This document shows, one piece after another, positions 15,661 to 59,932 of a DNA stretch of 64,000 nt. The notes under the pieces were generated by a model that was not told the origin of the DNA, did no database searches, and saw nothing but the letters and a program-made list of their open reading frames with translations. Each line of letters opens with the position of its first letter. Within the stretch, counting starts at the first letter, position 1. The stretch comes from Haladaptatus sp. R4. GTDB taxonomy: Archaea; Halobacteriota; Halobacteria; Halobacteriales; Haladaptataceae. The stretch covers positions 558,001 through 622,000 of the forward strand of contig NZ_LWHG01000021.1 of assembly GCF_001625445.1 (NCBI RefSeq), read 5' to 3'. A program made the translations under genes and the position numbers.

Positions 15661-16320
15661 ACTTCGAAAGCCCTCGCCACGCTCGCTACGAGTTGCTTCT
15701 GGTTTCATTGAGAGAGCAACTGCTGAGAACACTACCTCGAAAGCCCCCGCCCGCTCGCGGCCGCTGTGCAGGATATTCTGGCCTCTCCGCCACGTTCGGC
15801 CAGAACAGTGCCTACACAGCGACTAAACGGTGCGCGAGCGGGCGACCCCTTTCAATCCCACCTGACCGCACCCGCACCGCTTGCTCGCGGGCCGTGCCCG
15901 CTCGCTTGCGAGGTTCCTCCGGAACCTCGTCTGCCACACCCTCCCCAACCGATTCCTTCGCTCGTCACACTCGCTCACTCATCCCTCGCACGATAGCCAG
16001 TCAGGTCCTCGGACGACGTGTCCTCGGCCCTGATGGCCCGCGCGCCACTCGGTCGGACGAGACAGGCGATACCGACCCAGCCACACGGCGCGCGAATGGC
16101 GCACGCCAGTGCGCCCGCGCGAGGGATGACCGAACGTAGTGAAGGAATCGGTTGGGGAGGACGTGGTGCGGTGCGGCAGCGGAGCGGTTGCGGTGTAGGT
16201 GTGGGTTTCGAGGAAGTATTCTCGGGAACTGCAATCACAAACCGACCAAACACTCCTGTGCGTAGCGAGCGACGTGGGTTTCACCCACCAGTTGCTGTCC
16301 TCTTCTCGAAAGCGCCACAC
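15661..16320. repeat. Multi-hairpin intergenic repeat element, copy A
   Basis: This non-coding 660-base stretch fills most of the 890-base gap between the DUF5797 and enoyl-CoA hydratase genes. It opens with two copies of a TCGAAAGCCC box (15663, 15737). A stem-loop at 15749-15843 follows: an 11-bp base GCCCGCTCGCG, then CGCTGTGCAGG, then TTCTGGCC with a complementary arm for each. Next come an 8-9 bp mini-hairpin at 15909-15929 and a 219-base palindrome closed by a perfect 19-bp stem (15941-15959 with 16141-16159). The 24-base edges 15722-15745 and 16203-16226 are imperfect inverted repeats. No convincing gene is present; open frames across it lack domains. Copies B and C lie at 28.2 and 43.2 kb. 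Confidence 0.85.
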
Positions 16321-28164: not shown

Positions 28165-28915
28165 TGTTGTGATTGCAGTAGCCGAGAGGACCACCTCACT
28201 ACCTCGAAATCCCCTACCCGCTCCAAACAGAGGCGTTTGGTACTTCTTCGATTGCAACGACTGGGGAGCAGACCATCTCGAAAGTCCCCGCCCGCTCGCT
28301 ACGCACAGAAGTGTTTGGTTGGCGTGTGATTGGAGTCGCTGAGAAACAGACCGCTTCGAAAGCCCCCGCCCGCTCGCGGTTGCTGTGCAGGATATCCGCT
28401 CTCCGCACAACTCGCGGATAGGGCCTGCACAGCAACCACGTAAACGCGAGCGGGCGGCCCCTTTCATCCCCGCGAGGAACGAGCGGGGAGTTGAAAGACG
28501 AAGTCTTTCAGAAATCCCACCCAGACACCGCAACCGCACCGCTTGCTCGCGGGCCGTGCCCGCTCGCTTGCGAGGTTCCGGAGGAACCTCGTCTGCCACA
28601 CGCCTCCCCAACCGATTCCTCCGGTCGCTTTGCTCCCTCCGTCATCCCTCGCACGATTTTTCCGAGACGGGTCGGCCAGTGGTTCGGCCGACCCGTCTCG
28701 TCAGCGCGCGCCACTCGGTTGGACGGGGTGGCCGATACTGACCAACTACACGGCGCGCGAACGGCGCACGACAGTGCGCCCGCGCGAGGGATGAGTGAGC
28801 GACGCAGGAGCGAGGGAATCGGTTGGGGAGGTGTGTGGTGCAGGGCGTCGGCGGTCGCGGTGCGGTCTCATTGCCGCTCGGTAATTGTGATCGCAGAAAA
28901 TCCAGGTACTTCTGT
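28165..28915. repeat. Multi-hairpin intergenic repeat element, copy B, with 78-bp tandem boxes
   Basis: A non-coding element filling most of the 945-base gap between the NUDIX and proS genes. It opens with three head-to-tail units of about 78 bases (GATTGCAG-like motif at 28171, 28250, 28328; TCGAAA at 28204, 28278, 28356). A long stem-loop (28368-28455) follows, with 11-, 13- and 7-bp nested stems. Two shorter hairpins are at 28468-28488 and 28492-28510, and a mini-hairpin at 28571-28591. A palindrome is closed by 17 bp (28603-28619 with 28815-28831). Inside it is a perfect 15-bp hairpin (28663-28677 with 28686-28700). No plausible gene is present. Confidence 0.85.
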
Positions 28916-43246: not shown

Positions 43247-43810
43247 CTGTGATTTCAGCTACTGAGAAGCGGACCTCGAAAGCCCCCGCGAGGAACGAGC
43301 GGGGAGTTGAAAGACGAAGTCTTTCAGAAGTCCACCCAGACACCGCGACCGCAACCGCAAGCCACACCCTCCCCAGCCGATTCGCTTCATGCTCAAAAAT
43401 CGGAGATTTTTGGCATCACGAAAATCTTCGATTTTCGAATGACTCCCTACGGTCGTTCCGCTCATCCCTCGCACGATAACTAGCAGGCCCTCGGACGAAC
43501 TGTCCTCGGTCCTGCTAGCCCGCGCGCCACCCAGCTGGACGGGCTGAGTGATACTGACCAGCCACACGGCGCGCGAAGGCGCACGCTATTGCGCCCGCGC
43601 GAGGTCTTCGTGAGTGACACAGGAGCGAGCGAACGGCTCGTCAGAGCGTTGCTCTGACGGTGGACGAGTGAACGGAGTTCCCGCGAACGCAGTGAGCGGG
43701 AGCACGGAAGAATGGAGTTCTTCCGGAGTGAAGGAATCGGCTGGGGAGGATGTGGTGCGGTTGCGGTATTCATGCGGCTCGGTATTTGTAGTCTAAAAGA
43801 AAACAGAAGT
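43247..43810. repeat. Multi-hairpin intergenic repeat element, copy C
   Basis: A non-coding element in the 825-base gap between the small membrane protein and the FNT gene. It has one GATTTCAG..TCGAAAGCCCC box, then the hairpins 43284-43304 and 43308-43326, which are shared with copy B. A palindrome is closed by 16 bp (43368-43383 with 43734-43749). Internal hairpins lie at 43394-43412, 43419-43437, 43480-43518, 43639-43659 and 43705-43725. The first large stem-loop of copies A and B is missing. No plausible gene is present. Confidence 0.85.
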
Positions 43811-59744: not shown

Positions 59745-59860
59745 AGTACGGTTATGAGGTTGCGAAGCAACCTCGCAAGCGAGTAGCGCGGAACGGAGTT
59801 CCGCGGACCGTTCGAGCGGGCTTTGCCCGCGAGAAGACGGCATCGCCGCGAGCGAAGCGA
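59745..59860. repeat. Cluster of short palindromes with 3-base loops
   Basis: GAGGTTGC-GAA-GCAACCTC (59757-59775), CGCGGAAC-GGA-GTTCCGCG (59788-59806) and GCGGGC-TTT-GCCCGC (59817-59831) occur within 75 bases between the FetB-like and S9 genes. The 8+3+8 design is the same as in elements B and C. No gene is present. Confidence 0.7.
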
Positions 59861-59932
59861 GGGGCGACCGGGAGAGGCCAAAATATCTCGCGCAACGATT
59901 GCGAACGAGCGAGGGCTTTCGAGGTCAGTCCC

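Follow-up and report, generated by a model that had tools for sequence, protein, structure and literature searches.

Three intergenic elements in a 64,000-nucleotide stretch of the Haladaptatus sp. R4 genome (the window) appear to be composite copies of a REP-like non-autonomous repeat of haloarchaea in which the fold of the purine strand would be selected, most likely as RNA; we give this reading a probability of about one half. A first-pass annotation had presented the elements, A (15661-16320), B (28165-28915) and C (43247-43810), as a family that could be non-autonomous mobile units, structured RNAs or DNA-level organising elements, and its interpretation is partly supported. Evidence was gained for non-autonomous dispersal, from empty orthologous sites, and for a structured nucleic acid, from strong strand-specific covariation. 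None was gained for a DNA-level organising role, as orientation along chromosomes was random.

A, B and C proved to be real and mutually alignable over 147-369 nt at 71-84% identity (A-B, 78% over 359 nt, E 3e-68; A-C, 84% over 147 nt; B-C, 71% over 369 nt). The reported count of three copies in 64 kb holds for elements, with an extra outer-module fragment at 59756-59925. Pattern scanning recovered the described sequence boxes, TCGAAAGCCC/TCGAAAGTCC occurring twice in A, twice in B and once in C, and CGCGCGCCAC and ACACGGCGCGCG once each per element. The large nested stem-loop was found in A and B and not in C. The imperfect 24-base inverted ends ascribed to A are present (15722-15745 and 16203-16226, matching at 19 of 24 positions), but the family unit does not end there. 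Pairing in A is indeed extreme: its folding energy was -344 kcal/mol against -256 +/- 8 in dinucleotide shuffles (z -10.8 with RNA and -9.8 with DNA parameters). All three elements are gene-free and lie between genes according to a heuristic caller based on simple open frames and composition, the few low-scoring frames over the elements being taken as spurious. Features of the window are listed below; R1 is a covariance model built across genera, with rough E-values.

15664-15746, plus: outer terminal repeats of element A with two TCGAAAGCCC boxes (15664-15673 and 15737-15746), by pattern scan; they recur in many own-genome loci
15722-15745, plus: left imperfect inverted end of element A, 19/24 to 16203-16226, by end comparison
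15747-15846, plus: nested stem-loop module of element A, CCGCCCGCTCGCGG...GCGAGCGGGCG, by alignment; also core-less at locus L061
15857-15939, plus: 5' arm extension of element A with mini-hairpin CGAGGTTCC..GGAACCTCG, by alignment and pattern scan
15940-16053, minus: unit 1 of element A, the minus strand being the folded purine strand (R1, 71.1 bits, E 4.7e-15)
15951-15983, minus: G.A-zipper hairpin of unit A1, GATGAGTGAGCGAG..CGAGCGAAGGAATC (pair pattern WWWgg.WggWWggWW)
16080-16160, plus: unit 2 of element A, the plus strand being the purine strand (R1, 57.9 bits, E 6.4e-12)
16125-16149, plus: G.A-zipper hairpin of unit A2, GATGACCGAACGTAGTGAAGGAATC, by pair pattern
16161-16226, plus: 3' arm of element A and right inverted end (16203-16226), by alignment and end comparison
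28278-28365, plus: outer terminal repeats of element B, with boxes at 28278-28287 and 28356-28365 and a degenerate one near 28203, by pattern scan
28366-28466, plus: nested stem-loop module of element B, ending GCCCCTTTCA, by alignment and pattern scan
28603-28719, minus: unit 1 of element B, the best unit of the window (R1, 89.6 bits, E 2e-19)
28614-28646, minus: G.A-zipper hairpin of unit B1, by pair pattern
28745-28831, plus: unit 2 of element B (R1, 58.9 bits, E 3.7e-12)
28790-28820, plus: G.A-zipper hairpin of unit B2, by pair pattern
43276-43285, plus: outer TCGAAAGCCC box of element C, by pattern scan
43368-43535, minus: unit 1 of element C, with extra hairpins in the linker (R1, 52.0 bits, E 1.6e-10)
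43639-43749, plus: unit 2 of element C, degenerate and interrupted by mini-hairpins (R1, 28 bits, E 7.7e-5)
59756-59925, minus: core-less outer-module fragment between two genes, the fourth place in the window, by alignment and pattern scan

The 0.2-0.4 kb palindrome noted earlier is present, but it is not the basic unit; it consists of two inverted copies of a smaller one. In the window R1 detected six units and no more, each element holding two whose 5' ends face one another. A unit measures about 110 nt (108 model positions), or about 180 nt in Natrinema, where it has lineage-specific ends. In the own genome, the covariance model and BLASTN, both proposed with the first-pass annotation, gave 59 core units and, spread over about 40 loci, 134 matching pieces, respectively, and 12 other repeat-rich haloarchaeal genomes hold 21-91 units each. 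An exact gapped pattern from one arm matched 95 of 293 Halobacteriales genomes (36 of 87 genera), while the reversed control pattern gave zero matches in the same 293 genomes and a phylum-wide scan found no match beyond the order. Among the matches listed, the named genomes are haloarchaea only; the genera include Natrinema, Natronococcus, Halococcus, Halosimplex and Halorussus, and further Natronorubrum, Salinibaculum, Halobium and Haladaptatus. The family is patchy and found in haloarchaea only among the genomes searched.

In most genera other than Haladaptatus the sequence is solitary, with the second arm absent. Because the monomer stands alone there, the Haladaptatus palindromes can be described as two inverted copies of one monomer, and the middle of the palindrome, judged from these relatives, is older than its wrapping. 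Most Haladaptatus units form inverted dimers, making a long palindrome inside extra palindromic modules, and all 16 close pairs there have the same divergent order with 5' ends facing. By contrast, the four close pairs seen in Natrinema are all convergent; such pairs occur in three of its genomes (G046, G158 and G251), a lineage-specific dimer geometry.

The purine strand of the unit reads GGC-GCGCG-CUG [hairpin of free sequence] CGYGC-GAGG-GAUGA ... GAAUC-GGYUGGGGAGG. Its first part is a 5-bp, G.U-tolerant helix (P1) closing the hairpin of free sequence. The GAUGA-GAAUC linker forms a second hairpin, built of two Watson-Crick pairs in alternation with tandem G.A/A.G pairs that recur every four pairs, and an invariant GGYUGGGGAGG follows. 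The G.A period is visible position by position over 192 linker hairpins. In the cross-genus alignment, 309 of the 330 cells at G.A positions are filled, and the Watson-Crick positions between G.A steps swap freely (for example GC 30, AU 11, CG 8 and GU 3). On the pyrimidine strand the mismatches would be C.T, which prevents this helix from forming there. Units of Natrinema have a third hairpin, CGUGGC-NACUCCNUGUU-GCCACG (alignment columns 161-183), whose CUCC loop could possibly pair with the upstream GGGGAGG as a pseudoknot.

The SIGNIFICANCE tests were run on a structure-blind alignment of 57 units from many haloarchaeal genera, which are related sequences whose counts are not independent. 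In this alignment 94.7% of cells pair, and changes on both sides were seen in 207 cells of these 57 related units, compared with 62.5 +/- 5.7 in shuffles. The covariation score was 0.495 versus 0.159 +/- 0.010 when shuffled, and slid partners gave 0.089 or less. The 67 own-genome matches alone yielded 223 double changes versus 74.5, in an alignment fitted to the model. A conserved secondary structure is supported by covariation.

Strand asymmetry was marked: G.U outnumbered A.C by 70 to 6 over all helices and by 38 to 0 in P1 alone. Symmetric scoring of mismatches favoured the purine strand by 17:2 in the own genome (p = 7e-4) and by 74:17 in other genomes; leaving out the fixed closing position gave a weaker excess (30 to 16, p = 0.054). 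The purine strand also out-folds its complement in 39 of 39 Natrinema copies (mean -75.4 versus -62.3). One strand is the folded one, and these tests alone do not tell RNA from single-stranded DNA. As G.T pairs and sheared G.A pairs form in single-stranded DNA too, RNA is not proven.

Around the Haladaptatus dimer lie outer repeats ending TCGAAAGCCCCCGCCCGCTCGC, the nested stem-loop module and many perfect hairpins (stem of 7 or more; loops GAA, GGA, AAC or AAA). The density of perfect hairpins is 3.46 per kb against 0.55 in the flanks, about 6 times higher. Some mini-hairpins, CGGGAGAGCGAAGCTCTCCCG and TGAAAGACGAAGTCTTTCA for example, sit at varying positions of the arms across the own-genome loci L031-L066, like tiny insertions. 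The outer module occurs core-less at L061 and in the fragment at 59756-59925, and five loci (L366, L367, L368, L370 and L371) have units with no outer box nearby. Since outer module and units each exist separately, the composite is assembled from parts. At L061 (1460-1600, contig G000:C32) there is a complete outer palindrome, CCCGAAAGCCCCCGCCC...GGGCGGGGGCTTTCGAGG, with no core, which is probably an element in its own right. At L031 the core is flipped relative to the outer layer, suggesting recombination between inverted arms.

By the same heuristic caller, own-genome loci are all intergenic, and those with both neighbours called (37) comprise 14 convergent, 10 and 6 tandem and 7 divergent settings; element A itself lies upstream of two divergent genes. 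Relative to flanking genes, 103 monomers were oriented at random (32/26/23/22). Four congeners lack locus A between the orthologous genes, the flanks there being nearly contiguous, and at one Natrinema locus the intergenic gap is about 45 nt in several related species versus 349. Target duplications at the edges were looked for, and the flanks of the empty orthologous sites, at 80-90% identity, are too diverged for an exact junction or a target duplication. The varying copy positions and random orientation fit dispersal; absence at a single site can also be loss.

Several candidate mobilisers were rejected. The own genome (about 96% complete) gave no match to Y1_Tnp (PF01797), for which the control was positive in five genomes including Haloferax volcanii, and none to reverse transcriptase (PF00078); the three own TnpB loci had no BLASTN match with A, B or C. 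No Y1 transposase or reverse transcriptase was thus detectable, and TnpB is unrelated. Partner searches for A's inverted ends covered Y1_Tnp, TnpB and RT. No promoter-like AT-rich box was found at a fixed distance before the unit. Among 50,697 phage records there was no match, and only three plasmid records matched. A replication-polar motif, prompted by strand runs in one Natrinema genome, was discarded: apart from one short list, strand switches were as frequent as expected at random. Also discarded was a four-way junction RNA made of units 1 and 2, as each half folds on its own strand and is also found by itself.

We infer that trans-acting machinery would carry copies to new intergenic sites, with the fold of the purine strand as what may be recognised, most likely in the form of RNA from read-through of neighbouring genes. 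The lifestyle would resemble that of REP/BIME or a minimal SINE, either a parasite or a domesticated RNA, with the fold selected while the stems drift. The G.U share and the strand-specific G.A hairpin are the grounds for preferring selection at the RNA level. A bolder and less probable version is that the repeat represents a new multicopy haloarchaeal RNA class with a G.A-zipper helix, in which tandem sheared G.A pairs recur at every fourth pair, transcribed, read by a dedicated protein and spread by RNA or single-stranded DNA copying without known transposases. The main rival of RNA-level selection is a single-stranded DNA substrate, the fold serving a single-stranded DNA transposase or recombinase (compare IS200/IS605 ends and REP/RAYT) and RNA playing no part. 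Strand-specific hairpins, dimers, intergenic dispersal and the lack of genes are all typical of such elements, and GNA-type mini-hairpin loops, present here, are stable in DNA as well, as are sheared G.A pairs. REP dimers and REPs inside palindromes have also been described (PMC3733652). We nonetheless consider this rather unlikely, given that Y1_Tnp (PF01797), present in the Haloferax volcanii control, is missing from the own genome, that the elements and the three TnpB loci have no sequence in common, and that chromosomes show no strand runs of the kind that lagging-strand-biased transposition might give. Moreover, a 13% share of G.U pairs in P1 looks high for stems made of DNA.

Selection of the RNA in cis, as a terminator, mRNA stabiliser or processing signal in the untranslated regions of neighbours, would agree with the very stable hairpins and with convergent gene pairs being the commonest own-genome setting (14 of 37), but random orientation of the 103 monomers, the position of element A upstream of two divergent genes and the lack of site conservation make it improbable. 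Still less probable is a double-stranded or cruciform site that organises DNA (for gyrase, condensin, a nucleoid protein or recombination/segregation signalling). A function symmetric for the two strands leaves the 70 to 6 ratio of G.U to A.C unexplained, the G.A zipper is possible on one strand only, orientation is not polar and the repeat is missing from many haloarchaea; these points outweigh the sixfold density of perfect mini-hairpins and the cores inverted against their outer layer, as arm recombination would give. That the elements are decayed copies of a known IS, MITE or PATE, the refutation named in the first-pass annotation for an IS with coding capacity, is very improbable. MITEs and PATEs abound in Haloquadratum genomes (PMC3119063), but conservation of a fold over many genera is not decay, the elements have no coding capacity and no similarity to own TnpB loci, and the phage and plasmid records gave next to no matches.

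Nothing IS-like was seen in A, B or C, in keeping with the earlier statement that they are not recognisable insertion sequences. Membership in any Rfam family was rejected, as no curated model matches at the gathering threshold or, for the five loci searched more loosely, at E <= 1, and a literature search found no paper describing the element. Like REP/BIME/REPIN sequences, the haloarchaeal repeat is short, intergenic, multicopy and often in inverted dimers. REPs are often inverted dimers, some nested in palindromes, and G.T pairs in their stems have been read as an RNA-level constraint (PMC3733652). The haloarchaeal unit differs, however, in its size (110-180 nt versus 20-40), in a consensus without the GTAG/CGTC tag (foot), in its second hairpin of tandem G.A pairs and in the absence of a RAYT/Y1 transposase from this Haladaptatus genome; REP membership is ruled out by the missing tag, wrong size and absent RAYT.

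PATE and SMR elements of Haloquadratum are likewise haloarchaeal, transposase-free, palindromic and located in or beside other repeats, with target duplication not seen (PMC3119063). PATE palindromes are near-terminal and related to IS605-type ends (PMC3119063), whereas the elements here are unlike own TnpB loci; PATE membership was rejected as IS605-related ends were not found in a comparison with the three own TnpB loci. SMRs have terminal inverted repeats, and identity between their copies is commonly >95%, while the copies here diverge strongly but covary. A SINE-like retroelement would also be a structured non-coding unit dispersed without an enzyme of its own, but the haloarchaeal unit has no promoter-like box and its host genome no reverse transcriptase. 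Kink-turn and K-loop RNAs, bound by archaeal L7Ae, have tandem G.A/A.G next to Watson-Crick pairs. The haloarchaeal G.A hairpin shares this arrangement and differs in having several G.A steps, every four pairs, with no three-nucleotide bulge at G.A.

A haloarchaeal repeat with 20-90 copies per genome, many host genera and strong covariation has stood outside Rfam. It lets archaeal biologists ask whether REP- or SINE-like repeats under selection for their fold exist in archaea, what does the copying when no enzyme can be recognised, and which protein reads a helix that alternates Watson-Crick with G.A steps. For annotators, purine-rich intergenic stretches of haloarchaea can belong to this repeat unit. 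Weaker, shorter relatives of the unit were seen in other haloarchaeal families (L357, L358, L360 and L361), which suggests that the exact pattern may understate both the age and the diversity of the family.
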